This document shows positions 9,626-34,305 of a stretch of 64,000 nucleotides of DNA, in pieces (positions within the stretch are counted from its first letter, which is position 1; the number at the start of each line of letters is the position of its first letter). The stretch is from Methanosarcina sp. MTP4 (GTDB lineage: Archaea; Halobacteriota; Methanosarcinia; Methanosarcinales; Methanosarcinaceae): contig NZ_CP009505.1 in the NCBI RefSeq assembly GCF_000970045.1, positions 3,434,808-3,498,807 on the forward strand, given 5' to 3'. The notes under the pieces are model-generated. The model did not search any database. It was not told the origin of the DNA and saw only the letters and a program-made list of their open reading frames with translations. Both the position numbers and the translations under genes were made by a program.

Positions 9626-10787
9626 CATTTAGTTTTTGCTTCTGTTTTTGCTTTTGCTCCATAGTTCGGTCTTTTCCCACGTTTTCAGGTCTGATATGAC
9701 AGCACTCTCCCGAGGCTGTCGCGGGGTCCACATGAATGGTAGTTCCCGAGATGTAGGAGAAATTTTCCAGAAGCCTCTGCCTGATTCCGTCGGCAATCAC
9801 ATGGCCGTCCTCGACCGAAAGGGAAGGGTCAACTGCAGCGTTGATTTCCGCATGGATCCGATGCCCAATCCAGCGGACCCTCACATCCGTCACTTCACAG
9901 ACCCCATCGGCACACTGGGCCACGTCTTTGACCTTATCGAGAATCTCAGGCTCGACTCCGTCCAGGAGACGGGTGAAGACCAGCTTACTCGAATCAAGGA
10001 CAATCTTCAGGATGGCGACAGTGATAATAATCCCTATCAACGGGTCAACGATCGGGTACCCAAACCAGACCCCGAGAGCCCCGATGAGGACCGCAAGGCT
10101 GGTGAAACCGTCTACCCTGGCGTGATATCCATCAGCAACAAGAGCCGCACTCCCGATTTCCTTTCCCACCTTCATCCGGAACTGGGCCACGACTTCGTTT
10201 CCGATACAACCTATAATCGCGGCGATTGCCACGGCTCCTACATGCCCGATGGGCTGCGGGTTAAAGAAGCGGTGAACTGACTCATAGCCCGCCACTGCGG
10301 CACTGAAAAGGATCAGCAGAACAATGATCACGCCTGCAAGGTCTTCTACCCTGCCGTAACCGTAGGAAAAGCTTTTACTCGGTTTTCTCCGGGCTAAAGA
10401 AAAAGCGATTGCAAGCGGAATTGCCGTTGATGCATCCCCGAAGTTGTGAATGGTATCGGCAAGGAGGGCAACACTGCCCGAGATGTAAACGATGAAGATC
10501 TGCATAATGGCTGTAATCATCAGCCCGACAAAAGACCACTTTACTGCCCATATACCTTTTTCAGTAGCAAGGATGGAAGGGTCCACAGATCCGTGGGTAT
10601 GACTGTGCCCTTTGGAAGTCCCTTGAGAGGAGCTGCCAGAGTGCTCATTGGAATGATCGGAATGTTTGTGGAAATGGAAAAGCCCGTGTTTGTGGGATTT
10701 AGTTTCACCGGCATGTTCTGAATCAATGTTACTGTCATTTTCATGAGAATAATTATGAATATGTATTTCAGACAACTTTTTGGACAT
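9612..10787 (-). CDS. Cation diffusion facilitator (CDF) metal exporter with His-rich N-terminus
   Basis: 391-aa CDF-family antiporter expected to export Zn2+ or a similar divalent metal. The first 75 residues are strongly histidine-rich (HIHNYSHEND, HKHGLFHFHKHSD, GHSHTHG), a likely metal-sensing or binding tail. Six membrane helices follow with the two metal motifs LADTIHNFGD and ADGYHARVDG, then a cytoplasmic ferredoxin-like domain with paired cysteines near the end (GECCHI). Start: the ATG at 10787 follows GGGAGG by 5 bases; an ATG 21 bases upstream is less well placed. The C-terminus ends in a KQKQKQK stretch. Stand-alone gene, convergent with the Fe-S genes. Confidence 0.9.
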   Translation of the reverse strand: MSKKLSEIHIHNYSHENDSNIDSEHAGETKSHKHGLFHFHKHSDHSNEHSGSSSQGTSKGHSHTHGSVDPSILATEKGIWAVKWSFVGLMITAIMQIFIVYISGSVALLADTIHNFGDASTAIPLAIAFSLARRKPSKSFSYGYGRVEDLAGVIIVLLILFSAAVAGYESVHRFFNPQPIGHVGAVAIAAIIGCIGNEVVAQFRMKVGKEIGSAALVADGYHARVDGFTSLAVLIGALGVWFGYPIVDPLIGIIITVAILKIVLDSSKLVFTRLLDGVEPEILDKVKDVAQCADGVCEVTDVRVRWIGHRIHAEINAAVDPSLSVEDGHVIADGIRQRLLENFSYISGTTIHVDPATASGECCHIRPENVGKDRTMEQKQKQKQKLNAQPG

Positions 10788-11587
10788 GCTGCCTCCCTTG
10801 AATTTCATTCTGTTCTTAAGCCAAACTTGGAAGCTATTTTATAAATAGGTAGTTATCTTTAAAAAATAATTTATTATGCATCCATTCATACATCATTTCA
10901 GGATTATAGCATGGAATGAAAAAATATCTCCCCGCTATAAGCTGGAAATTACCGGGAAGAGTCAAAAAAAAAGTATTTTTATTACTATGAAGGTTTCCTG
11001 CACGACCCCATCTATATAAAACAGGCTAATGGCAGGGTTTTTTACAAGAAAAAAGTTGGAGAGAATATACATCAGCTTTATTTCTGCATCAAAATTTGAA
11101 TTTTCAATAAATTTTTTAACTCCAGTTTTACGAATTCTTACATAAAAAGCCAATCGTATGAGAAATTCAAACAAGAAAAAAATAAAAAAAAATATAACGG
11201 GATAAATCTGCCAGGAAGTATGAGCAAATAATAAAAACAGCGGAATTCAAAAAGTCAAAGTAAAAGGAATAGATAGAGTGGAACACCAAAGAAATGAATA
11301 GAGTAAAAAATCGAAAAAACTTGCATAAATAAGAAGAGAAAAAGATCCCTGTTATTCAGCCAGGATAACCAACATGTCAACTCCATATTAGCTCGTAAAC
11401 TAAGATCCGTTATCCGAATCCACAACCTTACATAATTTTCAATTTTTATTTAAATGGGATAGAATTCCCGAGACCTCCGACCTTTGATACAAAAGGCACT
11501 TTTCAAATCCAACATCGCTCCAGGGACCTATAAATATCCCTGAAAAACAAACCGAACAAAATGAAAGAAGAATTGGGAGAACTAAAC
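10788..11587. other. AT-rich intergenic region
   Basis: 800 bases between the CDF gene and the 44-aa gene. It is AT-rich with many A-runs. A 70-codon open frame on the minus strand (10962-11174) has no Shine-Dalgarno and a composition like the surrounding DNA, so I do not call it. The right end carries the promoter of the 44-aa gene. Confidence 0.6.
11527..11537 (+). promoter_or_regulatory. TATA box of the 44-aa protein gene
   Basis: CCTATAAATAT is a good archaeal TATA box. A transcript starting about 25 bases downstream would begin just before the first candidate ATG at 11561. Confidence 0.55.
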
Positions 11588-11722
11588 ATGATTCAAGCAA
11601 AAGAAGTTGGCAGAAAGCCCGAAGTCGTGTGGGCAGTTGACATCAAAGAAGACGGGAAAACATATTGTGAGAACTACATGCTCCTGTTTCCCAAGTATGA
11701 CAGTGCAATAGATGATGAATAA
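11588..11722 (+). CDS. Small conserved-looking protein, 44 aa, unknown function
   Basis: Short gene beginning MIQAKEVGRKPE and ending SAIDDE, acidic overall with one cysteine in TYCENYM. The ATG at 11588 follows TTGGGAGAAC with a fitting spacing; an in-frame ATG at 11561 would give 53 aa. A TATA box lies at a suitable distance upstream. The central stretch VVWAVDIKEDGKTYCENYML looks like a beta hairpin of a compact globular protein. I do not recognise the family. No neighbour suggests a role. Confidence 0.6.
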   Translation: MIQAKEVGRKPEVVWAVDIKEDGKTYCENYMLLFPKYDSAIDDE

Positions 11723-12158
11723 AAATTAATTATCTGATAAACAGAAAATTAAAAACGAACAGGACCCTGTTCAAAAACTAAGCCTGGGAAGCATCTTCCC
11801 GGGCGAACCTCCAATCAAACTTACTGCTTATTCAGCAATTGTGCTATAACCAATAATTGTGCTACTATCAATTAGACTTATTCTGGGATTCTACTTTAAT
11901 CAGCAATTTTACTTATGCAGCTCCTCCACCAACCAGCAACTTTCTTATTCAGCTATTTTATCAATCAACAATTTTACATATTCAGCGATTCTACCAATTA
12001 GCTACAGCATTAGTCACCTATCCCTCGGCAGTTTCACTTACATTTTACTTATCCCTACCTTTATTCCCCGCCCACAACGCATAAAAACACTTCAGGATAT
12101 ATTTAAAGACGGAAGAGAAGAACGTATTTTAACGCAGGTAAAAAAAGGAAGTGAAGCC
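11723..12158. other. Intergenic region with degenerate ATTCAGCNATTTTAC-type repeats
   Basis: The region between the 44-aa gene and the methyltransferase contains several degenerate copies of a 15-20 bp motif around CAGCAATTTTACTTAT (11822-12050). A frame open through it to the methyltransferase translates to low-complexity Ser/Tyr/Pro sequence without family resemblance, so I treat it as noncoding. An AAGCCTGGGAAG...CTTCCCGGGC hairpin lies near 11780-11803, a possible terminator for the 44-aa gene. Confidence 0.5.
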
Positions 12159-12842
12159 GTGAATAAAGAAGCTACTGAAAATATGGAAAAAACGGTCCTG
12201 AACAGCCAGCAGCCGCACTGGGAAAATGTTTTTTCGAACAGCTCTTCCAGGTTTGGGGATGAAGCAAGCTACCCGGCCCGGAGAGCAGCCGAACTTTTCA
12301 AAAAGGAAGGAAAAACAAAAATCCTGGAACTTGGAGGCGGCCAGGGTAGAGACAGCTGTTTTTTTGCAAATGAAGGTTTTTCCGTCCACGTGCTCGATTA
12401 TACCGAAAGCGGGGTCAGGTCGATAAAAGAGAAAGCTGAAGAAACCGGCTTATCAGGGTTCGTTAAAGCCCTCAGGCACGACGTCCGAGACCCCCTCCCC
12501 TTCGAAGACGAAACATTTGACGCCTGCTATTCCCACATGCTCTACTGCATGGCACTTACCACCGAAGAACTGGAGTTCCTCTCCAGCGAGGTCAAAAGAG
12601 TGCTCAACCCCAGGGGTGTGAACATCTACACCGCAAGGCACACCGGGGACGCCCACTACGGGACAGGGACCCTCCGGGGAGAGGACATGTACGAGATCAA
12701 GGGCGGTTTTATCGTGCACTTCTTCAGCAGGGAAAAGGTTGAACAGCTTGCCGCAGGGTATGAGAGCTTCGAAGTAGAGGAGTTTGAGGAAGGAGAACTG
12801 CCGAGGAAACTGTACCTGGTAACAATAAGAAAAGAAGATTGA
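12159..12842 (+). CDS. Class I SAM-dependent methyltransferase
   Basis: 227-aa methyltransferase. Motif I is ILELGGGQGRDS (the Gly-rich SAM loop), followed by the acidic strand end VHVLDYT and the DPLPFEDETFDACYSHM motif IV region; it fits the methyltransferase 11/25 group. The substrate cannot be told. Start: GTG at 12159 behind AGGAAGTGAAG; the frame stays open for 300 bases upstream, but that part translates to repeat-derived low-complexity sequence. It is convergent with the FilR1 regulator only 12 bases away. Confidence 0.85.
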   Translation: MNKEATENMEKTVLNSQQPHWENVFSNSSSRFGDEASYPARRAAELFKKEGKTKILELGGGQGRDSCFFANEGFSVHVLDYTESGVRSIKEKAEETGLSGFVKALRHDVRDPLPFEDETFDACYSHMLYCMALTTEELEFLSSEVKRVLNPRGVNIYTARHTGDAHYGTGTLRGEDMYEIKGGFIVHFFSREKVEQLAAGYESFEVEEFEEGELPRKLYLVTIRKED

Positions 12843-18565: not shown

Positions 18566-21500
18566 TCAGTCTCTTCTCATGAAAAAACCGACTGCAAGCC
18601 CGATAACACCTGCAAAGATGCCGAAGCCGGGAGATTTTTCCTTATTTTCTTCGGGTTTTTCAACTTCTGATGCGGTTTCTTCCGCAGGAACTTCACCATT
18701 GACTGAGGGCTCGAGATCAAGCGTACCGGACCCGCCTTCTGCGACAATGGCAAAAGTGGAGAAGCCGGGCGTCAGAGCACTGAAGTAGAAGTAATCTGCG
18801 TCTTCGTCTTCAACTGTGGTTTCGAGTTCCACCCATTCCCCGTCGTGGTAGCGCAGGAGTTTTACGTCCTCGGCGTCCAGACCATTTTCTTCGAACCAGG
18901 CTTTATCGACTTTAAAGAAGATACTTGCTCCTTCAATGTCACAGTCCCCTGAAACGAACTCCATATCCATGTATTTGTAGACAGTGCCTTCCGGCTGTGG
19001 GACCCCTGAAGGCTGACCTGCATGGTTCTTTGTCCTGAAACGGGCATTGGAGAAGGGGTTTTTGGAATTGACCTCAATAGCATAGATGGGTTCTTTATCG
19101 AACTTGACGTTTGCTGAATCAGCCGGTTCCCTGAAGGTAACACCCTTTTCTTCCCATTCGGAAGGCTGAGGCTGGTAATGTGAAGGGCCGTTACTGTTAC
19201 TTCTGCTGCTGATGCTCACTGCTGTGTGGGAATCGTAGTCATCAGGCAGTCCTTCAACGTTTCCGTAGACGTCCGTGGCGACGGTGTAGAAATAGTAGTC
19301 ACCTGCTTCACTGGTAGAGAACTTGAAAGTGCCAGTGCTGCACTCTCCGTACTTGCTCCAGTCCCCACTGTCCTGTCTGTAATAGAGCTCAACCATGTCT
19401 ACACCGACACTTGCCGGGTTGGTAAACCTGGTACTTACAGTAAATGAGACCGTGCCCTCACTGCTGGCTTTGGACGGGGCATTTGCCTCGGAAAGAAGAA
19501 CAAGCGGGTAGGAATCGGTCTGCCGATCTCCCGAATAAGAACTGGAAATGGAGGAAATATAGCTGGCAATGCCGTATTCACTGTCTTCATCATAGCTGGC
19601 AATGTCATATGCACTGTCGGCAATGCCGTCCCCGTTAGCATCATAACTGCTCGAAAGAGTTCGGATAACCGGAGTGCCGAACGAGATTCCGTTCACGTAC
19701 TGTCCTGCCCTTGCAGCATGGACAAGCTCCTTTGCGTGTACGGACGAGTTGTTGCCCAGATACAAACCACTGTAGAGGGAAGCATCAAAGTAAGAATATT
19801 CAATCCTCTTAAAATTAAACCTGATGGTACCGTTTTCATACAGCAACACCTGGAATTCGAGGGGGGATTCGCCATAACCACCGTTATAATACGAATCCTC
19901 GTATGTAGCCAAGTGATAATCGATCACCGTCAGGTTAACGGGGATTTCATTTCCTTCGGAATCATTGTCTCCTGCCAAATACCTCGTGTACCCATACCAC
20001 TGAACATCCGGGAAAGTACTTTCCATGAGGGCAGTTTCAATTGGACCGGATTCCATGGTAACCTGAACATCCTTTACCTTGTCCTTGTCCTTGTCCTTGT
20101 CCTTGTCTTTTTCTGTTACAGCTTTTTCATTCAGAGTTTCAAGTTCTTCAGAGTTAACTACGAAGGTACTTTCAACCCCATGTTTTTCTGAAGCGGCTGT
20201 ATATTGATGTAAGTCTTCTTCAGATCCTTCTGCGCTAAGGTCATCACAGAGAGCAAATATGAACGTTTCGTCGGGATATGTTTCAACCCAGTATTTGTGA
20301 CCGTCATAGGAAGAATCATTAAGTTCCCCGGACCCTGCCGAAATCAGCTGGATCACGCCGTTGCTCACTACCTGCATGTGGGTATAGTTAACCCCATCAA
20401 GAGTGAGATTAAAGCCTATGGGAACCTTTTCTGAATAATCGTCATCTGACGTATCATTCCAGGTTGCATCGTTCCTGGTAGTGTTGAACCACTGATAAGC
20501 GGATTCAGTCAAAGAGTATTCACGGTAAACATCCCCGTAGTAGTTTCCGATGTGAGCGCTGGAAACAAGGGAGATGGGAGTGCTAAAAGACGTCTCATTT
20601 TCATAGTCTCCGGCCCTGGCTACATACATAAGCTCCTTTGAATGTTCGGAGGAATCGTTCCCGAGATACAAACCGCTGTCCAGGGAGTAGTCGAAAGAAA
20701 GATAGTCAATCCTCTTAAAATTGAACCTTAAGGTCCCGTCTTCATACAGCACTACCTGGAAATCATTGGGGTATTCACTGTAACCGTAGTCGTCATAGGT
20801 AGAAACATGATAATCTATCACCGTCATGTTGCAAGGGATCGCAATGCCCCCGGAATCAGTATCTCCTGTTAAATAGCTCTTATAACCGTACCAACCATCA
20901 TCTCCTGCATAAAGGTCGTCGGAAAGGGCGAATATGAACGTTTCTTCAGGGTACCAATCTGCCCACTGCGAAGCGTAATCATAATCGTCATCATCCAGTT
21001 CCACCCCGCCTTCGGGGATGAGATGAATAACACCGTTGCTCACGACTTCCATCCGGGTATAGGTCATTCCGTCAAGAGTGAAGTCAAAACCTATGGAAAC
21101 GCTTTCCGAACAATAATCATCATTCGAATTACTCCAGTCCAGGTCCTCCTGCGTGATGTTGATCCACTGGTAATCGGCTTCATTGAGGCAGTATTGATCG
21201 GATATACACCAGGAGTTGTCCGAATCACCGCCGTAAACGGGTAAGGTGAGGTTTCCACAAATAACGTTTCCGGAGAAAGTGTTCATCTCACAATAATCGT
21301 AAAGGATAATTCCATAACAATAGGAATCCGAATTACCGTTATTGATCAAAGTGTTGCCTGTAAACTCGTTGGAGTTGCAATAATCATCAAGGTAAATTCC
21401 ACAACATTCGGCATCATAATCACCGTCGTTGCTCAAAGTGTTGTCAGTAAACACGTTGGAATTGCATTCATAGTAAAGGTAAATTCCGTAACAGTCGTAA

Positions 21501-22573
21501 TCGGAATTCCCATAATTACTTACCATGTTGCCTGTAAACTTGTTGGAGTTGCAATAATCATCAAGGTAAATTCCACAACATTCGGCATCATAATCACCGT
21601 CGTTGCTCAAAGTGTTGTCAGTAAACACGTTGGAATTGCATTCATAGTAAAGGTAAATTCCGTAACAGTCGTAATCGGAATTCCCATAATTACTTACCAT
21701 GTTGCCTGTAAACTCGTTGGAGTTGCAATAATCATCAAGGTAAATTCCACAACATTCGGCATCGGAATTTCCATCATTACTTACCATGTTGCCGGTAAAC
21801 ACGTTGGAATCGCAATCTTCGTAAAGGTAAATTCCATAACAATCTTCATCGGAATCACCGGCATTGCTCAAAGTGTTGCCGGTAAACACGTTGGAGTTGC
21901 AATCATCGTAAAGGTAAATTCCGTAACAGTCGTAATCGGAATTCCCATCATTACTTACCATGTTGCCGGTAAACTCATTAAATCCTGATTTATACAGGAA
22001 AATTCCGTAACAGTCGTAATCGGAATCACCGTTATTATACACCTTGTTGTCGGTAAACGTATTGTCGGAAGCGTTGTATTCGAGACCGGAATCATAGCCT
22101 TCAAAAAAGTCATACCCAGAGGCATCCACATAAAAACCATAGGTTTCGGAACATACGATATTGTCTGAAACCGTATTACCACTCGACGCCACCCAGACCC
22201 CGACTTCGTCCGCACCGGTCACATTGAACCCCTCAAGCGTACAGGTATCTTCGCTCAATTTGATGCAGAAATCTCCTCCAGTTCCGTTAACCACAGGAAG
22301 GCCAGAATCCGTATCCATGCCCTGCAGGATAATCCCGGTTTTGTTCACATCCACATTTTCATAATATGTCCCGCTCTCCACAATGATCGTATCGCCGGGA
22401 CTGGCGGCGTTGATGGTCTCCTGAATGGATCCACTTTCATTAACGTAATGAGTCAGGGAATCTTCAGCAGCAAACTCGATTGAAGCTTCTGCCGCAGCGG
22501 TACAAATGAAAAACATTAGTAAAGAAATTGCAATAGAAATTTTTAAAAAGTTATGCTTTTTTCTGTTTTCCAA
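18566..22573 (-). CDS. Giant surface protein: NosD-like beta-helix repeats, two repeated beta domains, PGF-pre-PGF and PGF-CTERM
   Basis: About 1335 aa, exported and probably anchored by archaeosortase. Order: signal peptide (core ISIAISLLMFFICTAAAEA); pectate-lyase/NosD-type parallel beta-helix (about residues 40-470) whose central part is a run of 29-aa repeats such as SNYGNSDYDCYGIYLYYEC; two homologous beta-rich domains of about 190 aa (each with IGFxxTLDGxxYT and LYExGTxRFNFKRI) separated by a Lys/Asp stretch (KDKDKDKDKDK); a beta sandwich; a PGF-pre-PGF domain; and a C-terminal SPGFGIFAG helix ending MRRD, the PGF-CTERM signal. Start: TTG at 22573 with AAGAGGCG upstream; the upstream in-frame extension gives no signal peptide. 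Parallel beta-helices usually bind sugars or serve adhesion; the ligand is unknown. Confidence 0.85.
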   Translation of the reverse strand: MENRKKHNFLKISIAISLLMFFICTAAAEASIEFAAEDSLTHYVNESGSIQETINAASPGDTIIVESGTYYENVDVNKTGIILQGMDTDSGLPVVNGTGGDFCIKLSEDTCTLEGFNVTGADEVGVWVASSGNTVSDNIVCSETYGFYVDASGYDFFEGYDSGLEYNASDNTFTDNKVYNNGDSDYDCYGIFLYKSGFNEFTGNMVSNDGNSDYDCYGIYLYDDCNSNVFTGNTLSNAGDSDEDCYGIYLYEDCDSNVFTGNMVSNDGNSDAECCGIYLDDYCNSNEFTGNMVSNYGNSDYDCYGIYLYYECNSNVFTDNTLSNDGDYDAECCGIYLDDYCNSNKFTGNMVSNYGNSDYDCYGIYLYYECNSNVFTDNTLSNDGDYDAECCGIYLDDYCNSNEFTGNTLINNGNSDSYCYGIILYDYCEMNTFSGNVICGNLTLPVYGGDSDNSWCISDQYCLNEADYQWINITQEDLDWSNSNDDYCSESVSIGFDFTLDGMTYTRMEVVSNGVIHLIPEGGVELDDDDYDYASQWADWYPEETFIFALSDDLYAGDDGWYGYKSYLTGDTDSGGIAIPCNMTVIDYHVSTYDDYGYSEYPNDFQVVLYEDGTLRFNFKRIDYLSFDYSLDSGLYLGNDSSEHSKELMYVARAGDYENETSFSTPISLVSSAHIGNYYGDVYREYSLTESAYQWFNTTRNDATWNDTSDDDYSEKVPIGFNLTLDGVNYTHMQVVSNGVIQLISAGSGELNDSSYDGHKYWVETYPDETFIFALCDDLSAEGSEEDLHQYTAASEKHGVESTFVVNSEELETLNEKAVTEKDKDKDKDKDKVKDVQVTMESGPIETALMESTFPDVQWYGYTRYLAGDNDSEGNEIPVNLTVIDYHLATYEDSYYNGGYGESPLEFQVLLYENGTIRFNFKRIEYSYFDASLYSGLYLGNNSSVHAKELVHAARAGQYVNGISFGTPVIRTLSSSYDANGDGIADSAYDIASYDEDSEYGIASYISSISSSYSGDRQTDSYPLVLLSEANAPSKASSEGTVSFTVSTRFTNPASVGVDMVELYYRQDSGDWSKYGECSTGTFKFSTSEAGDYYFYTVATDVYGNVEGLPDDYDSHTAVSISSRSNSNGPSHYQPQPSEWEEKGVTFREPADSANVKFDKEPIYAIEVNSKNPFSNARFRTKNHAGQPSGVPQPEGTVYKYMDMEFVSGDCDIEGASIFFKVDKAWFEENGLDAEDVKLLRYHDGEWVELETTVEDEDADYFYFSALTPGFSTFAIVAEGGSGTLDLEPSVNGEVPAEETASEVEKPEENKEKSPGFGIFAGVIGLAVGFFMRRD
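21371..21892. repeat. 174-bp near-identical duplications inside the beta-helix gene
   Basis: GGAGTTGCAATAATCATC recurs at 21371, 21545 and 21719, exactly 174 bases apart; each 174-bp unit holds two 29-codon beta-helix repeats. The first two units differ at only a few bases, so the expansion is recent. Diverged 87-bp copies continue to about 21990. Confidence 0.9.
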
Positions 22574-23110
22574 GAAGAATCGCCTCTTAATAGTCACAAT
22601 ACCTATTCTGGATGAAAAGCAAAGAAACAGCGGCATTTCCAAACAATAACAGGGCCGGGTGAGAGAGATATTGCTTAGATTTGAAAAGACAAAATTTCCA
22701 TTTATCAACATGTCCGGTTTACTTCCTCACCTTATAGTCTTCTGCCTGCCGTCCGTCTACCACGATCTTACCCATTCACCCAGAAATTATCCAAGATGAC
22801 TTTTGATATAAAAAAAACAAGTTATATAATTTAAACATAACTACAGATGCACAGAAAAATCATAAAAAAATTAAAACTATGGGCAAATATATTCAAGTAA
22901 GATATGCAGATATTTACAAATTGAAAAAAAAACTGAGAAGGAAATACAAAAAGAAATATAATATTATCTTTGCAAATTCAAACTGTTTGAAAAAAAGATA
23001 TTTCAAAAATATTTGAAATAAACTTAAATAGCAAAAATGCCATAGTGAATAAGAAACCTACTTAACACCGTTAACATCAGAGCAGCCAACATAAAAAAGG
23101 AGCGAACCCA
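22574..23110. other. Very AT-rich intergenic region
   Basis: About 540 bases, divergent promoters expected for the beta-helix gene (minus) and the CMD-family gene (plus). A long A-rich stretch at 22800-23050 contains TATA-like sequences (GTTATATAATTTAAAC near 22822, and CTTAAATAGC near 23022). No gene seen. Confidence 0.55.
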
Positions 23111-23443
23111 ATGAGAATGCTGGAAGAATTTTTCCCGGAATTCACCGAGAAACTTGACGAAATCGATCAGCTCTACACAGAAAAACGGACGATTGACGAA
23201 AAGACCTACCAGTTCATCTGCTTTGCCCTCTCGATTAAGGGCAGGTCAAAACCCTGCGTCCTGAAGCACTTCAAAGGTGCCCTCGAAGCCGGGGCCACGG
23301 TCAAGGAACTTTCCTACATCTTTGCCCTGGTCATGCGGGAAGCCGCAGGCGCCGACGACTGCTGGACCCATGACGTTATCGGGGACTGGAAAGAAATTTT
23401 GAAAGGAAACGTTTCCTGCGGCTGTGCAGGAGACGAAGAGTAA
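23111..23443 (+). CDS. Carboxymuconolactone decarboxylase/AhpD-like (CMD family) protein
   Basis: 110-aa all-helical CMD-family protein. The family's catalytic CxxC...H element appears here as SKPCVLKHF, so the first cysteine is a serine while the second Cys and the His remain; a CGC motif sits at the C-terminus (NVSCGCAGDEE). AhpD relatives are thiol-disulfide proteins in peroxide defence; with one active-site cysteine missing, the activity may differ or use the C-terminal CGC. Shine-Dalgarno AAGGAG lies before the ATG. Monocistronic. Confidence 0.75.
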   Translation: MRMLEEFFPEFTEKLDEIDQLYTEKRTIDEKTYQFICFALSIKGRSKPCVLKHFKGALEAGATVKELSYIFALVMREAAGADDCWTHDVIGDWKEILKGNVSCGCAGDEE

Positions 23444-25459: not shown

Positions 25460-25753
25460 AGAAAATCCCTCTAAAGAGAATGGCAGGATAATGGATTATA
25501 TAAGTCTTTCATTTTCAACACAAAAATAAAATTGAAAAGCCCGATAGGAAAAAAATAAAGATGAGAAATAACCTGGAATCCGAATAAACAATAAAAAGAT
25601 TTATCCATCTTTAGGAAGAAACACTTAGTTTCTTACAACTTGATAAGTACGCAGTTTCTATATTCCCTCTCTTAGGGGCAAAACTTATTAAATAAGATAC
25701 ACAAATTATTTAATGAGTCCCATATGTTTTTCAGTCACTTATAATTTTAAAAT
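25460..25753. other. Intergenic region with divergent promoters
   Basis: 294 AT-rich bases between the lipoprotein (minus) and the radical SAM gene (plus). TATAAT-like sequence (CTTATAATTTT) lies just before the radical SAM ATG. No gene seen. Confidence 0.5.
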
Positions 25754-26908
25754 ATGTTGGGGGATGAACATATTAATCCGGATAAAGAAAACTTTTTTTC
25801 ACCACCTCCGATTCTGAGAGGGTACATGTACGGGGCAAAGGAAGCCTATGAAGCCAGGGACTCGGGTCGGCTTCTGGCGATACGCCTTGAAACAAACACT
25901 TCATGCAACCTCCGCTGCCGCTACTGCTATGCGCAGAGCGGAGGGGATTCGGTAAAAATAGCTGATTTTGATGTGTTGAAACGGGTTATTTCCGAAGCAA
26001 AGGAACTCGGGATAAGGTCCGTGGTCGTGATCGGGGGAGGAGAACCTACTCTTTACCCGGATTTCAGGGAATTGATTGCTTACATCGACTCCCTCGGGAT
26101 CATACCCATGATGTTTTCAAATACTGTTTTGATGACGAAGGACCTTGCAGAGTTCCTTTACGAACACAACGTCTCAGTAATGGGAAAACTCGATTCCCTC
26201 AAGCCTGAAGTACAGGACTACCTGGCAGGCCGGGAAGGTTCGGCAGTCGATATCCGCAGGGGGCTTTCAAACCTAATGGATGCCGGTTTTAACGAACCTG
26301 CCGAACCGGGAAAACTCAGGCTTGGGATTTCCTTTGTGAGCAACAGGCTGAACCTCGAGGAAATAGAGGATATCTGGCACTTTTGCCGGCGGAACAACAT
26401 TTTCCCGAACATGGAGATTCTAACACCCACGGGCAGGGCAAACGAAGAACTTGCGGACAAGATGCTCACCGCCGATGAGATTCAGGCCTACAAAATGAAG
26501 CTGCTTGACATCGACCGGAAATACTACGGATATGACTGGCTGCCCTATACGCCGATCACCGCAAGCGGCTGCCTGCAACACCTCTACAGCCTCTATATAA
26601 CCATAGACGGAAGCGTCAGGCCCTGCGCCCCGACCAAGCTGGATGAGCACCCTGCCCTGAAGGTTAACGGGGAATATCCCTGCAACATTAACAAAATGAG
26701 CCTGAAAGAGATTTTCGATTCCGAACTCTTCAGCTACGTCCGGAATATTGACAAAGTCCTTGAAGGCAGGTGTGGGGACTGCAAACACCTGAACGAGTGC
26801 ATCGGGTGCCGGGGTTATGCTTACAGCGTGGGGGTGAACAAAGGAATGAACCCCCTGGAAGCGCTCAGGATGGAATGTCAGCAGTGCTTTAAAGATTCAC
26901 TTGAATGA
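25754..26908 (+). CDS. Radical SAM protein with SPASM domain
   Basis: 384-aa radical SAM enzyme. The CxxxCxxC cluster motif is CNLRCRYC (Cys51, 55, 58), followed by the GGEPTL SAM-binding motif. The C-terminal SPASM region holds several further cysteines (SGCLQ, RPCAPT, EGRCGDCKHLNECIGCRG, ECQQC), enough for auxiliary Fe-S clusters. SPASM enzymes often modify peptides or small amino-acid substrates. It is followed on the same strand by an EgtD-like methyltransferase and an arginine-deiminase-like protein, which suggests one pathway. The start is uncertain: the TATA-like box lies only about 10 bases before the ATG, so a later start is possible. Confidence 0.88.
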   Translation: MLGDEHINPDKENFFSPPPILRGYMYGAKEAYEARDSGRLLAIRLETNTSCNLRCRYCYAQSGGDSVKIADFDVLKRVISEAKELGIRSVVVIGGGEPTLYPDFRELIAYIDSLGIIPMMFSNTVLMTKDLAEFLYEHNVSVMGKLDSLKPEVQDYLAGREGSAVDIRRGLSNLMDAGFNEPAEPGKLRLGISFVSNRLNLEEIEDIWHFCRRNNIFPNMEILTPTGRANEELADKMLTADEIQAYKMKLLDIDRKYYGYDWLPYTPITASGCLQHLYSLYITIDGSVRPCAPTKLDEHPALKVNGEYPCNINKMSLKEIFDSELFSYVRNIDKVLEGRCGDCKHLNECIGCRGYAYSVGVNKGMNPLEALRMECQQCFKDSLE

Positions 26909-27066
26909 GACACCTAGGGCCTGGCGGGTATCGTCAGAATTACAAAAGCCTGACCTGCAGAGAAGCTGAACAGTAAGGACTGAAAGGAAAAACTTAAAGA
27001 GAAGATAGGCTTAAAGAGAAAATAGACTGGAAAGGAAAATAAAGACGGAACAGGAGAAGAGACAGG

Positions 27067-28125
27067 ATGCAGGGTACGGGACAATTAAGAAAGGATTCCG
27101 GGAACGAAACAAAGGTAGTAATGATCGACGAGGAAGGCCTTGAAGAAAAACTGTATGAAAGCCTCAAAAAGTATGAACTTCCCGACTACTTCCTGTACAC
27201 GGGCAGCGGAGGAGCCAGAAACTGGTTAAATCTGGACGAGTCAAAGACATTTCCCATAGCCCGTAAGCTCAAAAACCTGCTTGAGGAAAATCTTATCTCG
27301 ATAGTGAAGTTCATTCCCACAGGGATGAACTTTGTAAGCATCGGAGTAGGAAGCGGGGAAAAGGAAAGAATCATCCTCAATGAAATGATAAAAAAAAATG
27401 AAGAAGAGGCTAAAAACAAATCCGAAGAAGAAGTCTTCGGATCCGGGAAAAAAAAGCAACTCCACTATTATCCCATCGATATAAATTCCCGGATGGTCGA
27501 TATAGCCCTCGAAAAAGTGCAGGACCTGCCTGTGGAAAAAAAAGGAATCGTAGGTTTTATAGAAGATATGCCGCTCCTGAAAAAACACTGGCACCTTCCG
27601 GTCCTGTTTTGCATCATGGGAAATACATTTTGCAACTATGAACCGGACTTTATCCTGAAACTGGTTGGGGAAAACCTGGAGTCAGGAGACCTCTTCATGT
27701 TCGACGCACACATCTTTCCCGCCATTGACGGAAGCGATGACGCAAAGTCCATGAGAAATAAGGTCCTGGCTACATATTCTTCAAGGGAAAACGCTCTCTT
27801 CAACGTGTACCCGCTGCTCCACTACGGAATGGCCCCTGAAGACTTTGACTTCGAACTACTGCTCTCTCGCATAGAATCAGGGACAGAAGGATCCCTGTAC
27901 AGGACTCGCAAGACCCTGCAAATCCTCAATGATACCGAGATAAGGGTCGGCCCCGGCACTGTGAAATTCAAAGAAGGGGATGTCATCAAGATGGGGTTCA
28001 CCTACAAATATACCTTTGAACAGATCTGCGCGTTCCTGAATAAAGAAGGATTTGAAATCCTCAGGAAGTTCCTGAGTGAAGACCGGACCAATGTCATAAT
28101 CCTGGCAAAGAAGCGTACCTCGTAA
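27067..28125 (+). CDS. EgtD-like SAM-dependent methyltransferase (histidine-specific methyltransferase fold)
   Basis: 352-aa methyltransferase resembling the histidine N-alpha-methyltransferase family (EgtD, PF10017). SAM motif: FVSIGVGSGEKERI (about residues 90-102). The later LFCIMGNTFCNYEPD matches the family's GSTIGNF segment, and MFDAHI follows. The length fits the family, but substrate identity cannot be inferred from this alone; other amino groups are possible. It lies 158 bases after the radical SAM gene and 128 bases before the deiminase-like gene, all plus strand. A Shine-Dalgarno, AGGAG, is a little far from the ATG at 27067. Confidence 0.78.
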   Translation: MQGTGQLRKDSGNETKVVMIDEEGLEEKLYESLKKYELPDYFLYTGSGGARNWLNLDESKTFPIARKLKNLLEENLISIVKFIPTGMNFVSIGVGSGEKERIILNEMIKKNEEEAKNKSEEEVFGSGKKKQLHYYPIDINSRMVDIALEKVQDLPVEKKGIVGFIEDMPLLKKHWHLPVLFCIMGNTFCNYEPDFILKLVGENLESGDLFMFDAHIFPAIDGSDDAKSMRNKVLATYSSRENALFNVYPLLHYGMAPEDFDFELLLSRIESGTEGSLYRTRKTLQILNDTEIRVGPGTVKFKEGDVIKMGFTYKYTFEQICAFLNKEGFEILRKFLSEDRTNVIILAKKRTS

Positions 28126-28253
28126 ACATAGAATAACAAATCTAAAAAACACATCTAATGAGAAACTCTGATTCTAATAAGCACACCTTATAAGCACACC
28201 TTATAAACACAGCTGATAACACACCTGAAAAATCAGAAAATGGGGAGTTGAGA

Positions 28254-29225
28254 ATGGGTTGTCAGATAGAGAAGATTAACAGCGTGAAAAAAACAGAATC
28301 ATGTATCGCCTATGGCTGCGATGAACTGGGGAGACTGAAAAGCGTACTTTTGCATACTCCGGGAGAGGAACTCTCCCTGATAAACGAATCGAACTATAAA
28401 TACTGGCTTTATGATGAAGTCCCGGAAATGTCTGCGTACATCGAAGAACACCGGCAGTACAGGGAACTGCTCGAGTCAAACGGGGTAAAGGTCCACGAAC
28501 TCTCCGATTATGTGGAAGAAAACAAAGCTCTGATAGGAAAAATGCCCAACCTCACTTTTCTGCATGATACCGCGGTAATCTCCGAAAAAGGGGCCATGAT
28601 TTCAAAAATGCGCCCTCCGGCCAGGGAAAACGAAGAAGTTGTCGTAAAAGAAGCCCTGGACAACCTTGGCATACCTATCCTGAACGAGTTCAAAAGCAGC
28701 AACGGTTTTTTCGAAGGCTGTCTCCTTCTTTCAAGGGATACCATATTCGTTGCGGAAACCGAGAGACACACCTATCCTTTTGTCAGGGAATTCGTCTCAA
28801 ACATCCTCAACGAGTTTAAAGAAGTGATCTATGTCCGCACCCCCAAAGCCCGCCGCTACATGCACCCGGATACCATTTTCAACAGGATAAGGGAAGACCT
28901 TGCCCTGGCATACCTGCCCGCCTTTGAAGAGACCTGCCTCTTCACCCGGGATTCCAGGGAAAAGATCGATTTCAAGGAATTCATGCAGCAGAGAGGCATG
29001 GAAATCATCCCGGTCTCGGGTTCCGAACAAAGTCGTCTTGCCTGTTCCTTCGTACCCCTGGAAAGCGGAACTATCTTCCACTACGACATAGCCCTTGACG
29101 GCAAGACAAAAGAAGCCCTGGCCGAAGAAGGAGTGGAAATCATTTCCTTCCACCCGGAAGCCATCCTCGCAGGAGGGGGAAGCCTGCGCTGCCACACCCT
29201 GAGGCTTTGCCGGCGGAAGGATTAA
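28254..29225 (+). CDS. Arginine deiminase/amidinotransferase superfamily protein with altered active site
   Basis: 323-aa pentein-fold protein. The catalytic cysteine is Cys313 in GGGSLRCHTLRL, His204 lies in MHPDTIFNR, and Asp105 in FLHDTAV replaces the usual FTRDP, while EGC (155) stands where many family members have EGGD. So the guanidine-processing core is present but the substrate pocket differs from classical arginine deiminase, and the real substrate is probably another guanidino or amidino compound. The ATG at 28254 follows GGGGAG; a TTG at 28248 overlaps the site. It is third in the row after the radical SAM and EgtD-like genes. Confidence 0.82.
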   Translation: MGCQIEKINSVKKTESCIAYGCDELGRLKSVLLHTPGEELSLINESNYKYWLYDEVPEMSAYIEEHRQYRELLESNGVKVHELSDYVEENKALIGKMPNLTFLHDTAVISEKGAMISKMRPPARENEEVVVKEALDNLGIPILNEFKSSNGFFEGCLLLSRDTIFVAETERHTYPFVREFVSNILNEFKEVIYVRTPKARRYMHPDTIFNRIREDLALAYLPAFEETCLFTRDSREKIDFKEFMQQRGMEIIPVSGSEQSRLACSFVPLESGTIFHYDIALDGKTKEALAEEGVEIISFHPEAILAGGGSLRCHTLRLCRRKD

Positions 29226-29266: not shown

Positions 29267-30160
29267 TTAGAACGCATAGTCAAGGATAATCGAAACCGCA
29301 TAGACAAGCAGTGAGGCGTGATAGAGGGGGAGGGCAAACAGGCCCGCCTTCGGACTCTTTTCTTTCAGGAGCTTATAGTTAGCAATTACGATCAGGCCAG
29401 CGCCCAGCATAAAACCGTAGATCGCTGTTGTCCCGAGCTGCCCCAGGAACGGGACCGCTGCAAGGAAGTGCAGGAGCGTAAAACCTGCAATCCAGTAGAG
29501 AGTCCCCTTAGCCCCGTAAAGCACGGTTATTGAATTCATGCCCCTTGCCCGGTCATTTGCGATATCTGCAAGGTCGTTTACTGCCAGGTGCGCCATAGTC
29601 CAGGGGTAGAAGAAGAGCATGTAGAGCAGCACGGTCATGTCAGGCTGCCCGTAGCAGAGGTAGCCTGCAACCGGGAAAAGGGTAAAATCCGTCCTTCCCA
29701 GGAGCTGGGCTATCGGGTATTTCTGGTCCCTTTTTTTCACCTGGTAAAAGGCTTCGATCCCGTAAGAGTAGAGCATGATGGCAAAGACGTAGAGGGAATT
29801 CGGGAAAGGAAGCGTAAAAATCAGCGCGGAACTAATCCCTGCGAGCAGGAGAAACGTCCGGAGGGCGCTCTTGGAAGAAATCTGCCCTGAAGGGAGGGGT
29901 CTCTTCTTGAAAGGCCTCCAGTACTTTGTAAGGGTATGTTCCACGTCCAGCTTATCCCGATTCTGGTCCACATAATCATTGAGAACAAAACCGGCTTCAA
30001 AACCGAAAATTCCTATCAGAGCCGCCTTTATGGTCAGAGGCCAGGAAAAGCCCCCGTAGTTCTCAAAAGCAAGGACCAGGCCCGAGCAGAAGATCAGGGG
30101 CCAGGCCGGAAGGAAGTGGGCGCGGATGAGGTCGATGTAGGCTTTAAGGGTGTTTATCAT
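29267..30160 (-). CDS. UbiA-family prenyltransferase
   Basis: 297-aa integral membrane prenyltransferase with about nine helices. Two Asp-rich motifs are present: NDYVDQNRDK (first, NDxxDxxxD) and NDLADIANDRARG (second), which bind the prenyl diphosphate through Mg2+. The acceptor is not determinable from sequence; in Methanosarcina such enzymes serve membrane lipid or methanophenazine synthesis. Start: ATG at 30160 behind GAGGACG; an upstream in-frame extension of 19 codons lacks support. Convergent with the deiminase-like gene, ending 41 bases from it, and 53 bases downstream of the ABC ATPase on the same strand. Confidence 0.9.
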   Translation of the reverse strand: MINTLKAYIDLIRAHFLPAWPLIFCSGLVLAFENYGGFSWPLTIKAALIGIFGFEAGFVLNDYVDQNRDKLDVEHTLTKYWRPFKKRPLPSGQISSKSALRTFLLLAGISSALIFTLPFPNSLYVFAIMLYSYGIEAFYQVKKRDQKYPIAQLLGRTDFTLFPVAGYLCYGQPDMTVLLYMLFFYPWTMAHLAVNDLADIANDRARGMNSITVLYGAKGTLYWIAGFTLLHFLAAVPFLGQLGTTAIYGFMLGAGLIVIANYKLLKEKSPKAGLFALPLYHASLLVYAVSIILDYAF

Positions 30161-30213
30161 TGGGCGTCCTCGTGGAAAAAAGAATGCGAAATAGGAAATA
30201 GGAAAAAGAGAGA

Positions 30214-30936
30214 TCAAAGAATCTTACTCAAAAACGACTTTGTCCTCTCGTTCCGGGCGTTGCGGAAGATATCTTCTGGTGTTCCTTTCTCCACAATTAC
30301 ACCTTCGTCCATAAAGAGCACGCGGTCCCCGACTTCCCGGGCAAAGCCCATTTCGTGGGTCACGACGACCATGGTCATGCCTTCTTTTGCGAGGTCTTTC
30401 ATGACGTTCAGGACTTCCCCTACCATTTCGGGGTCAAGAGCCGAGGTGGGTTCGTCAAAAAGCATGACTTTCGGGCGCATGGCAAGGGCTCTTGCTATTG
30501 CGACCCTCTGCTGCTGGCCGCCTGAGAGGGAACTGGGGTAGACGTTGGCTTTGTCTTCCAGACCAACCTTTTTCAGGAGATCATAGGCGCGGTCGTAGGC
30601 TTCCTTTTCGGAAAGACCCCTTACTCTCATAGGAGCGAGAGCCACATTTTTAAGGGCGGTCATGTGGGGGAAAAGATTGAAGCGCTGGAAGACCATCCCG
30701 ACTTCCTCGCGGATCTTGTTAATATCCACTTTCGGGTCCGTGACCAGTTCTCCTTCGATCCTGATTTCTCCTGCAGTGGGGGTTTCGAGAAGGTTCAGGC
30801 AGCGAAGGAAAGTGCTTTTTCCGGAACCTGAAGGCCCGATCACACAGACGACCTCCCTTTCGTCAACCTTTTCCGTGATCCCTTTCAGGACCTCAAGCTT
30901 TCCGAAATGTTTGTGAAGATTATTCACTTCTATCAC
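30214..30936 (-). CDS. Polar amino-acid ABC transporter ATP-binding protein (GlnQ/ArtP/HisP type)
   Basis: 240-aa ABC ATPase. Walker [11 protein letters not shown]-loop FQRFNLFPH, signature LSGGQQQR, Walker [15 protein letters not shown] and switch His in VVTHEMGF are all intact. The family energises uptake of polar amino acids. The GTG start overlaps the permease 3' end by 17 bases, so the two are translationally coupled. Together with the permease and the binding lipoprotein this is a complete importer; the substrate cannot be told between Gln/Glu, His or Arg. Confidence 0.95.
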
Positions 30937-31615
30937 TTACACCAAGCCTCCTCTCGATATATGCAAGTATACGGGAAATTCCCATGGTCAGTGCCAGATA
31001 TACAAGGGCAACCGAAATGTATGTGGGAAATGCCGCAAAAGTCTTTGAGACATAGAGCATCCCGTTCTTTGAAAGTTCGTGCACACTAATGATTGCAAGC
31101 AGGGACGAGTCCTTCAAAAGCGCAATGAACTCGTTTCCGAGCGGGGGGATAATCAGTTTTACAGCCTGAGGCATGATGACATCCTTCATCGCCTGCCTAT
31201 CCGTCATCCCCAGGGAACGGGCAGCTTCCATTTGCCCCCTGTCAACGGACTTTATGCCCGCACGTACGATCTCTGCGTTATAGGCTCCACTGTTGATACT
31301 GCAGACCACGATCCCGGCAATGATCGGGTCGATCCTGAAAATCTGCCCCGTAGCAGCAGTTATCAACCCCGGAATTCCGTAATAGAAAAGCAGGATCTGT
31401 ACGAAGAGGGGAGTCCCCCGGATAAAATCAATATATACGATACTGGGAACTTTGAAAAACGATCTTTTAGAAAGTTTTCCAAAAGCTGCAATTGTGCCGA
31501 GAATGAGTCCAAAGCAGATTGAAAAGGTTGTGACCTCTACGGTAATTACCGCACCCCTTAACAAACTTGGAAATACAGCAGCGGCATGTTCAAGGTAAGA
31601 AACTAAAAGAGACAA
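30920..31615 (-). CDS. Polar amino-acid ABC transporter permease (HisM/GlnP type)
   Basis: 231-aa permease with five membrane helices and the conserved EAA loop [25 protein letters not shown] start preceded by GAGGTCGGAG. It forms the membrane channel with the ATPase encoded directly downstream (17-base overlap). The binding protein is encoded 551 bases upstream on the same strand. Confidence 0.93.
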
Positions 31616-32165
31616 AACTCCGACCTCAACTTTTTATAAATTTTTAATTCCGTTACGCAAACTGGACCTTGCCATAAATAAGGCATCTTTTGCGGCATTA
31701 GCTGTTATGGATAAGATTTCCGGGACCATGAATCTCGAACGGGCAAAGCACCCTTTTCAGAGCCTAAATCCCGTAAAAACACAGCAACACCTATTAATTG
31801 AAAACTTTTCACTAAACTTTTCCACTTTCACAAATACCTGTTTTACAGAAATATATAGGTGCTTTAGACTTTTCAATTATATAAATTAAATGATTTGAGG
31901 AAAATCGACATTTGAAGCGAATAACAGGATAAAAAGGAAAAGGTAAAGAGAGCGAAATAAAATGGAAAGCAAAGAGAACAGAATAAAATGGAAAGCAAAG
32001 AGAACAGAATAAAATGGAAAGCAAAGAGAACAGAATAAAATGGAAAGCAAAGAGAACAGAATAAAATGGAAAGCAAAGAGAACAGAATAAAATGAAAAGT
32101 AAAGAGAACAGAATAAAATGAAAAGAAAAAAAAGTGAGCATAACAAAAAGTTATGCTTAAAAAAA
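31616..32165. other. Spacer between binding-protein and permease genes, with a tandem repeat
   Basis: 550 bases separate the binding-protein gene from its permease, unusually long for one operon. The left part (31640-31900) has TATA-like sequences (TTTATAAATTTTT on the minus strand near 31632) that could give the permease its own promoter. The rest is a purine-rich 26-bp array. Minus-strand frames through the array read Phe/Ser repeats and are not genes. Confidence 0.6.
31948..32125. repeat. 26-bp tandem repeat, about six copies
   Basis: GAGAACAGAATAAAATGGAA plus AGCAAA repeats with starts at 31974, 32000, 32026, 32052, 32078 and 32104; a degenerate copy precedes it. Located between the amino-acid binding protein and permease genes. 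Confidence 0.92.
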
Positions 32166-33014
32166 TTACTCGGTAACGTTCTCTTCTGCAACGACTTCTT
32201 CAGTTACGTTCCCTTCTGCAGTGTCCTCTTCTTCCATGTACATCGGGAGATCAGAAATGAGCTCGTCGTACTTGCCGCTGTCCTTCACGTTCTGAAGCCC
32301 TGTGTTGATCTTCTCAAGAAGTTCGGTGTTGCCGGTGCGGACTGCAAAACCGTAGGACTCACTGTTAAGGGGCTCGCCTACGACCTTGATTACACCCGGC
32401 TGTGCAGCAATGAAAGCGTTGGTCACGGGTATGTCGTTGATCATGGCATCTGCTCCGCCGATCTTAACCTCTTCGATGGCTTCGTTTACGTGGGGGAAGT
32501 CCTTGATTTTGGCAATGGTTCCGTTGTTCATGAGTTCTTCTGACTTAAAGTACCCGGTGGACCCTGTCTGAACAGCGACGGTCTTGCCCTGGAGGCCATC
32601 AACACCCTGGATATCTTCATTGTCTACTGCAACTGCGATAGCCAGCCCTGCGTTAATGTAAGGTTCACTGAAGTCGACCTGTTCCTCACGGTCTGGTCTG
32701 ATGGTCATCCCGGAGGCGATAATGTCAATGTTTCCAGTCTGAAGAGCCGGGATAAGGCCTGAAAAGTCCTGGTCCTGGTAGATAACCTTGAAACCCTGGT
32801 CTTCTGCAATCGCATTCATAAGGTCAACGTCAAAACCGATGACATTACCTGCATCATCCACAATTTCGAAGGGAGGGAACTGAGCTTCCGTGCCTACATA
32901 ATAAGTAGACATCTCCTCAACTGCACCTTCTTCACCCTGTTCGGCACAGCCAGCTGCAAAGACAACTGTCGTGATGACGAGGAGAAGTGCCAAGATCTTA
33001 AGCATTTTTTTCAT
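32166..33014 (-). CDS. Polar amino-acid ABC transporter binding lipoprotein (SBP family 3)
   Basis: 282-aa extracellular solute-binding protein. Lipobox VFAAGC (Cys23), then the bilobed family 3 fold (FPPFEIVDDAGNVIGFDVDL, SGMTIRPDREEQVDFSEPY, the latter with the Arg that clamps the amino-acid carboxylate). The tail is an acidic Asn-Val-Thr-Glu stretch (EGNVTEEVVAEENVTE). The ATG follows GAGGTACGATT. It feeds the permease/ATPase pair. A truncated copy of its signal peptide and tail lies 735 bases upstream. Confidence 0.95.
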   Translation of the reverse strand: MKKMLKILALLLVITTVVFAAGCAEQGEEGAVEEMSTYYVGTEAQFPPFEIVDDAGNVIGFDVDLMNAIAEDQGFKVIYQDQDFSGLIPALQTGNIDIIASGMTIRPDREEQVDFSEPYINAGLAIAVAVDNEDIQGVDGLQGKTVAVQTGSTGYFKSEELMNNGTIAKIKDFPHVNEAIEEVKIGGADAMINDIPVTNAFIAAQPGVIKVVGEPLNSESYGFAVRTGNTELLEKINTGLQNVKDSGKYDELISDLPMYMEEEDTAEGNVTEEVVAEENVTE

Positions 33015-33749: not shown

Positions 33750-34046
33750 TTATTCTGCCACTTCTTCTGCTGCATCTTCAGCGGCAACGTCTTCTGTTAC
33801 GTTTTCAGTGGCAACGTCTTCTGTTACGTTTTCAGTGGCAACATCTTCTGTTACGTTTTCAGCGGCAACATCTTCTGTTACGTTTTCAGCGGCAACATCT
33901 TCTGTTACGTTTTCAGCGGCAACATCTTCTGCTGCTTCTTCAACTACTTCTTCTCCACCTTCTTCAGCCTGTTCGGAACAGCCAGCTGCAAAGACAACTG
34001 TCGTGACAACAAGGAGCAGGGCCAAGATCTTTAACATTTTCTTCAT
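33750..34046 (-). CDS. Miniature lipoprotein: SBP-type signal peptide fused to acidic octapeptide repeats
   Basis: 98-aa protein. Residues 1-23 (MKKMLKILALLLVVTTVVFA AGC lipobox) are almost identical to the start of the neighbouring amino-acid binding protein, and the upstream DNA with its Shine-Dalgarno is also conserved. The whole binding domain is missing; instead there are octapeptides AAENVTED/ATENVTED (24-bp units, five to six copies) that resemble the binding protein's tail. So it looks like a duplicate of the binding-protein gene that lost its middle and expanded its tail. The lipoprotein signal is intact, so it could be displayed at the surface; otherwise it is a decaying copy. N-glycosylation sequons (NVT) occur in each repeat. 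Confidence 0.65.
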   Translation of the reverse strand: MKKMLKILALLLVVTTVVFAAGCSEQAEEGGEEVVEEAAEDVAAENVTEDVAAENVTEDVAAENVTEDVATENVTEDVATENVTEDVAAEDAAEEVAE

Positions 34047-34305
34047 AATCAAACCTCTGAAAATTCTCTTCCTTTTATTTAAACGACTCAAAAAATAAGG
34101 GACACTTAGGCATGAGAAGTCGATTACATTAAAACTTTTCGATTTTTATCAGTGAGAAGCCCTGGTGCGATTAAATAATGAGGGAGAAATAATAAAATGG
34201 TTAATAATTTTGACTTAGATAATATTACACTTATTTATTCCATAATTCATTTATATACATCGGATTCGTGTCGAGAGCGAATACTTATCCATAATTATTA
34301 GAGGT

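Follow-up and report, generated by a model that had tools for sequence, protein, structure and literature searches.

A conserved cassette of radical SAM/SPASM, EgtD-fold methyltransferase and arginine-deiminase-family genes in Methanosarcina: a candidate pathway to a methylated amino-acid compound

Organization of the locus

A stretch of 64,000 nucleotides from Methanosarcina sp. MTP4 (contig NZ_CP009505.1, positions 3,434,808 to 3,498,807 of the forward strand; hereafter the window, to whose first base all positions without a locus prefix refer) contains a cassette of three consecutive plus-strand genes that looks like an undescribed pathway building a methylated amino-acid compound. The first gene (25754..26908) encodes a radical S-adenosylmethionine (SAM)/SPASM enzyme of 384 aa (Pfam Radical_SAM, E 4.3e-20; SPASM, E 4.5e-7), the second (27067..28125) a predicted EgtD-fold SAM-dependent amino-acid N-methyltransferase (MT) of 352 aa (Methyltransf_33, the Pfam family of histidine-specific methyltransferases, E 7.9e-20), and the third (28254..29225) an arginine-deiminase-family enzyme of 323 aa (Pfam ADI, E 5.3e-24), referred to below as the deiminase-like enzyme. 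This row had been described in an initial annotation made from the nucleotide sequence without database searches, and each of the three open reading frames (ORFs) is backed by a Pfam match. Regarding the start of the third gene, ATG 28254 is likelier than TTG 28248 because the alignment with its relatives begins at that Met. No curated NCBIfam cut-off was reached by any of the three proteins among the matches listed, and, therefore, none of them has a named function there. A search of the window against Rfam gave no match, and ARAGORN found no tRNA.

Distribution and conservation of the cassette

Among 111 Methanosarcinaceae genomes, an orthologous MT was found in 32, the deiminase-like gene or fragments thereof in 29, and the radical SAM gene, whole or as a fragment, in 28 (E 1e-40); these counts omit weak matches that were regarded as non-orthologous, namely, those to the MT in G051 and G055 (E 3-4e-4) and that to ADI in G002 (E 4.3e-5). 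Cassette genes are present in 3 of the 14 genera of the family. Both partners adjoin the radical SAM gene in the same order in 27 of its 28 holders, some copies being broken: in G102 an intact radical SAM gene is followed by broken MT and deiminase-like genes, and the latter two are also broken in G075. The single exception, G100, is represented by a 3.8-kb contig with remnants of the radical SAM gene and an open MT gene, without a deiminase-like gene. In G008, the radical SAM gene is split over two overlapping frames (L051:10195-11348), which reflects either a frameshift or a sequencing error.

The initial annotation had named the occurrence of the three genes independently of one another as an observation that would speak against a common pathway, and this was encountered in part. 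The MT is the only cassette gene in G081, a single-contig Methanosarcina genome, and in G098, a genome that is 79% complete, and an open MT gene is flanked by broken partners in G096. Open MT genes survive at four Methanosarcina loci (L057, L061, L062, and L067) despite the loss or breakage of the other two genes, and the MT is, thus, able to outlive its cassette partners. Genomes with the MT only are a small minority and are most simply explained by decay of the cassette. Pairwise dN/dS values were 0.07-0.24 in all tested pairs of the three genes, indicating purifying selection; those of pairs with orphan MTs (0.11-0.24, three orphans tested) overlap those of cassette MTs (0.10-0.21) and, therefore, do not settle whether the orphans are decaying.

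Among 392 sampled genomes of the phylum of the window, true orthologues were found in Methanosarcinaceae only; the matches near 1e-23 in three other genomes were to general relatives of ADI.

A conserved site upstream of the cassette

A 23-base site, CTTAGTTTCTTACAACTTGATAA (25624..25646, plus strand), lies 5' of the putative operon and may be a promoter or operator element. In a search of 22 genomes allowing up to 3 mismatches, it was found with 0-2 mismatches, once per genome, 5' of the radical SAM gene in all 18 genomes that hold this gene or a remnant of it. G081 has one match with 3 mismatches elsewhere in the genome, and no site was found within 3 mismatches in G098, G055, or G020. The reversed control pattern gave 4 matches in the same 22 genomes. 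The mean frequency of the top base was 0.93 inside the site and 0.57 in its flanks (24 genomes), and the window contains a single occurrence against a chance mean of 0.01. One occurrence per genome suggests control that is particular to this operon. The distance from the end of the site to the start codon is 107 bases in the window and 24 bases in M. acetivorans; because of this difference, both a core promoter and a separate operator are conceivable, and an RNA leader element appears less likely.

Bacterial cassettes

A profile search of genome contigs with the deiminase-like enzyme returned 20 loci, 19 of which were archaeal (Methanosarcinaceae) and one bacterial (L086, from a Phycisphaerae metagenome-assembled genome). 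The bacterial locus has the three genes in unchanged order, with identities of 64, 38, and 57% for the radical SAM, MT, and deiminase-like proteins, respectively, and the end of its radical SAM gene (7047) overlaps the start of the MT gene (7026). The complete cassette was found in five Phycisphaerae (Planctomycetota) genomes, namely, that of L086, G773, G706, G1101, and G1240, and a fragment in G707. Three complete cassettes and one fragment came from a sample of 161 genomes of the order, three complete cassettes and the same fragment from 397 genomes of the class, the genome of L086 being among the three in both samples, and its own genome was the sole true orthologue holder among 392 genomes of the phylum. 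The conservation of the three genes together, therefore, extends beyond the 27 archaeal genomes to bacteria. Contamination is unlikely because the genes read next to these cassettes appear to be bacterial, as judged by family searches for a few of them. The simplest reading is that the cassette moved between domains as a block, in one direction or the other.

Distant ADI-family matches in Planctomycetota and Halobacteriota (L090-L095 and L111-L115; 24-29% identity for those aligned by tblastn) were set aside as general ADI relatives, and no radical SAM or MT match was present in the stretch examined around them. Plasmid searches yielded only distant relatives of the EgtD family (3 records) and of ADI (40 records). 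Approximately 3 kb from one bacterial cassette lies an MttB-family gene (L122:2423-3913; PF06253, E 5.3e-89).

The deiminase-like enzyme

The initial annotation had pointed to pocket residues that differ from those of arginine deiminase, and these differences are real: FLHDT stands at the FTRDP position and EGC at the EGGD position. However, the catalytic Asp and Glu within these motifs are retained, and the other key residues are also unchanged. In an alignment with the Mycoplasma arginine deiminase, Asp105, Glu154, His204, Asp206, and Cys313 correspond to catalytic residues, which we take to be D161, E213, H269, D271, and C398, and Asn99, Arg124, and Arg171 to substrate-binding residues, presumably N155, R180, and R232 (the aligned chain is numbered one lower than these residue numbers). 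None of the eight varies among 10 sequences drawn from two domains. The enzyme, thus, shares its catalytic and arginine-binding residues in register with ArcA and DDAH, whereas its 323 residues contrast with 409-433 in deiminases (approximately 409 in ArcA), approximately 80 residues being missing in the region of the helical domain. It scored 102.5 bits against the ArcA model TIGR01078, the cut-off of which is 489.1, and it falls short of that family in length as well as in score. In a profile ranking against the PDB, arginine deiminases came first (4e4j, E 9.3e-27), followed by DDAH and then by a 2-nitroimidazole nitrohydrolase (E 7.3e-8). An arginine-like guanidine is a rather likely substrate.

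The radical SAM/SPASM enzyme

The CxxxCxxC motif (C51, C55, and C58) and eight further cysteines (273, 291, 340, 343, 349, 352, 375, and 378) are invariant in 10 sequences from two domains, as would be expected for two auxiliary clusters, in line with the initial annotation. This core and the full set of SPASM cysteines are shared with NirJ, AhbC/AhbD, SkfB, and the tungsten-enzyme maturase. In contrast to these systems, the cassette enzyme is far under the cut-offs among the matches listed, the best named one being NirJ2 (91.2 against 500 bits), and no precursor peptide was found beside it.

An in-frame TAG occurs at codon 80 of the radical SAM gene, which encodes Ser in the window, at L066:6783-6785 and also at L027 and L023 (Methanosarcina genomes G076, G078, and G087); G088 was identified by count only. 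The frame is otherwise intact (373-380 aligned residues), and the feature is shared by related species. This codon is probably read through as pyrrolysine.

The methyltransferase

A Methyltransf_33 domain was detected in 10 of 10 members of the MT family. An AlphaFold2 model of the protein (pLDDT 84.6) was used for a fold search, in which EgtD 4uy6 was the best match (Z 31.5, 299 aligned residues, 2.9 A). EgtD structures took ranks 1-9 (Z 27.4-31.5) ahead of the next family at Z 17.4, in a fold-match (VIA) list from which the absence of a family does not exclude that family; the EgtD fold, including its accessory domain, is, thus, present. At the sequence level, neither phmmer nor an archaeal-only profile connected the MT with any PDB entry, while a cross-domain profile matched the solved EgtD. 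Against the EgtD model TIGR03438, the MT scored 45.1 bits and its bacterial orthologue 72.3, far under the curated cut-off of 290.9, and identity to EgtD is 17-23%.

EgtD recognizes the imidazole of histidine through Glu282. The MT was aligned with a pair of annotated EgtD sequences and, separately, with the solved EgtD. Both alignments place Asn166, Ser284, Glu282, and Met252 of EgtD at Asn190, Thr312, Gly310, and Lys282 of the MT; the first of them additionally pairs Tyr206 with Tyr237, Tyr39 with Tyr44, and Tyr56 with Phe62. Asn190, Tyr237, Lys282, Gly310, and Thr312 are invariant in 10 cross-domain sequences, and Gly310 also in a set of 16. In PMC8593015, Asn166 is given as the amine ligand and Tyr56, Tyr206, and Ser284 as the carboxylate ligands. 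The amine ligand and two of the carboxylate ligands, Tyr206 and Ser284 (as Thr), are, thus, retained in the MT. The title of PDB entry 4pip describes an engineered M252V,E282A variant of EgtD with tryptophan bound, which is consistent with positions 252 and 282 setting the choice of side chain.

Since Gly occupies the position of Glu282 and Lys that of Met252, a histidine substrate is unlikely. The initial designation of the protein as a histidine N-alpha type methyltransferase, thus, stands for the fold and not for the substrate. The alignments indicate with good probability that the MT acts on an amino acid other than histidine, and this substrate may be an alpha-amino acid with a side chain that suits the invariant lysine. 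The partner genes within the conserved cassette also differ from those of the EgtD system, being neither EgtB, EanB, nor MES.

A quaternary-amine transporter beside one bacterial cassette

At the bacterial locus L108, a gene for a fused binding protein-permease (10370-11863) shares 4 bases with a gene for an OpuC/EgtU-type ABC ATPase (11860-12621), and a gap of only 3 bases separates this pair from the radical SAM gene that follows on the same strand. The binding protein has an OpuAC domain (E 1e-53), for which the ergothioneine transporter EgtUC was the best match in the PDB (E 1.8e-37). Leu374-Glu375 and Phe293 gave a numbering offset of 229, by which residues were mapped onto the cage, ligand contacts, Phe293/Tyr337 switch, and Gly244 that are set out for EgtU in PMC9732360. 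The L108 protein keeps the cage residues Asn339, Tyr341, Tyr419, and Tyr443 and the ligand residues Glu375, Arg379, and Thr296 listed there, thereby sharing the domain, the aromatic cage, and the carboxylate residues with EgtU, OpuC, and ProX. Unlike EgtU, it resembles ProX, which binds glycine betaine, in having Tyr/Phe at the positions of Phe293/Tyr337, and Gly244 is replaced by Phe, as in AfProX, so that the protein falls outside the EgtU group; PMC9732360 ties the ProX-type Tyr/Phe pair and Phe at Gly244 to ligands other than ergothioneine. Because the cage is kept and the switch residues are of the ProX type, the predicted ligand is a quaternary amine and not ergothioneine in particular.

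A proposed pathway and its alternatives

Considering the conservation of the cassette, the three genes almost certainly work together. We tentatively propose that they form one operon for a pathway in which arginine, or a compound derived from it, is converted to an N-alpha-methylated amino acid, probably of the betaine type, that is also modified by the radical SAM enzyme. Cys313 of the deiminase-like enzyme would attack the guanidine carbon, either generating a ureido group by hydrolysis or passing on the amidino group. The EgtD-fold MT would methylate the alpha-amine of a non-histidine amino acid, the side chain of which may end in an oxygen-bearing group, such as ureido or carboxylate, to match the invariant Lys in the pocket. 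The radical SAM/SPASM enzyme would make the remaining change at an unreactive carbon. In this scheme, we infer co-transcription, the arginine substrate, the order of the steps, and the betaine product.

The EgtD-type fold and the quaternary-amine transporter beside one bacterial cassette favor an N-methylated, betaine-like product, which we regard as a possibility of slightly less than even standing; the MttB-family gene near the L122 cassette may be a further hint of this kind. Of the betaine- or ergothioneine-like compounds suggested in the initial annotation, the former is, thus, the better candidate. More broadly, its idea of a conserved unit for an amino-acid-derived small molecule has been retained, and the histidine-derived, ergothioneine-like product has been dropped. 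It is a speculative and rather doubtful extension that the cassette defines a new class of arginine-derived betaines with a radical-SAM carbon modification, made by the same three enzymes in methanogens and planctomycetes from an operon that was passed complete between the domains, and handled by a quaternary-amine transporter. With similar reserve, such a betaine might be seen as a counterpart of ergothioneine in logic, built from arginine instead of histidine.

Several points weigh against the pathway proposed here. The structure model of the deiminase-like enzyme is poor (pLDDT 60.7), for which reason it was left out of the fold search, and its pocket is drawn from sequence alignment only. 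The deiminase-like site would probably not accommodate an alpha-amine that is already trimethylated, and the steps would, therefore, need a set order. Regarding the MT, one carboxylate contact is lost by the change of Tyr56 to Phe62, the assignment of Met252 to Lys comes from the low-identity alignments, the gene evolves fastest of the three, and its presence alone in G081 and G098 means that it may have another substrate. The transporter adjoins one of the five bacterial cassettes and was not seen beside any archaeal cassette examined; at L109, the contig of 5,273 bases leaves the surroundings barely visible.

The deiminase-like enzyme could instead be an arginine:acceptor amidinotransferase, with the product gaining a new guanidine by a logic resembling that of creatine. 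Deiminases and amidinotransferases have catalytic residues in common, all of which are present here, and the adjoining MT recalls creatine synthesis. However, the MT is of the EgtD type and not of the GAMT type, and the PDB profile matches comprised arginine deiminases, DDAH, and the nitrohydrolase, with no amidinotransferase at E 0.01, which makes this alternative unlikely.

Somewhat less probable still is maturation of a ribosomally synthesized peptide or a host protein by the three enzymes. Among solved sequences, the radical SAM enzyme comes closest to the peptide maturase SkfB (E 3.2e-14), and many of the SPASM families among the NCBIfam matches listed act on peptides. Nevertheless, no small ORF was common to most of 17 cassettes within 700 bases upstream or 500 bases downstream, a range beyond which a distant precursor may lie; small-ORF matches in these flanks were parts of known neighbors or occurred in few genomes. 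Moreover, the intergenic gaps are mostly shorter than 200 bases or negative, and the retained residues for the carboxylate of arginine in the deiminase-like enzyme and for the amine and carboxylate in the MT point to free amino acids.

An anaerobic ergothioneine-like route, in which hercynine formed by the MT from histidine would receive sulfur or another group on its imidazole from the radical SAM enzyme, with the amidine carbon of this ring as the target of the deiminase-like enzyme, would account for the EgtD fold and the EgtU-like transporter at L108. The detectable kinship with the 2-nitroimidazole nitrohydrolase also means that imidazole chemistry exists in the deiminase superfamily. This route is, however, improbable in view of Gly at Glu282 in all MT members, the low score of the MT against EgtD, the ProX-type pair and Phe for Gly244 in the L108 binding protein, and the arginine-binding residues kept in the deiminase-like enzyme. 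That three unrelated genes became neighbors by chance, for which the solitary MT in a few Methanosarcina might be cited, is strongly contradicted by the identical order in three archaeal genera and five bacterial genomes and merits almost no credence.

In the literature collection searched, we found no paper describing the combination of a radical SAM enzyme, an EgtD-like MT, and a deiminase-like enzyme, in agreement with the initial annotation, which knew of no such pathway in methanogens. The papers listed for the M. acetivorans locus tags presumed from position (MA0775-MA0780) were unrelated. A review on archaeal thiols (PMC7278568) mentions EgtD homologues in archaea in general terms, and PMC9516567 describes other anaerobic routes to ergothioneine. 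Methanosarcina species, including the genetically tractable M. acetivorans, appear to hold an uncharacterized pathway that is preceded by a conserved site of its own. A new betaine, should this be the product, would extend the few amino-acid betaines known from anaerobes, and the MT would then represent an EgtD-family enzyme in which the side-chain pocket has been re-set naturally.

Neighboring genes and repeats

The polar amino-acid ABC importer that the initial annotation had placed near the cassette is present on the minus strand (30214-33014); its link to the pathway was not supported, as a UbiA prenyltransferase gene (29267-30217, minus strand) separates it from the cassette and it is missing beside the cassettes of several relatives. 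The importer is absent at L052, L053, L055, and L063, the last three of which also lack UbiA, and at L062 it is present though two cassette genes are gone. UbiA is retained at broken or partly lost cassettes (L057, L061, and L062), and both were rejected as pathway members. In some Methanosarcina, two UbiA paralogues stand in tandem beside the cassette (L054:5331-7426 and L065:5622-7701), while the window has one.

Upstream of the cassette, a carboxymuconolactone-decarboxylase-like protein of 110 aa (23111-23443) shows 93-97% identity in 11 other Methanosarcinaceae loci and is better conserved than the cassette proteins. The window also contains several repeats. In the importer, a 26-base tandem array (31923-32129; 7.9 copies, 92% match) separates the permease gene from that of the binding protein. 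Another, with a 27-base unit (33763-33931; 6.3 copies), lies within a short minus-strand ORF (33750-34091) with a lipoprotein-like start, in which it encodes a repeated AENVTEDVA-type unit. Large repeats of 87/174/261 bases (21291-22037) are located within a minus-strand gene (18566-22711) for a surface-type protein of 1381 aa.

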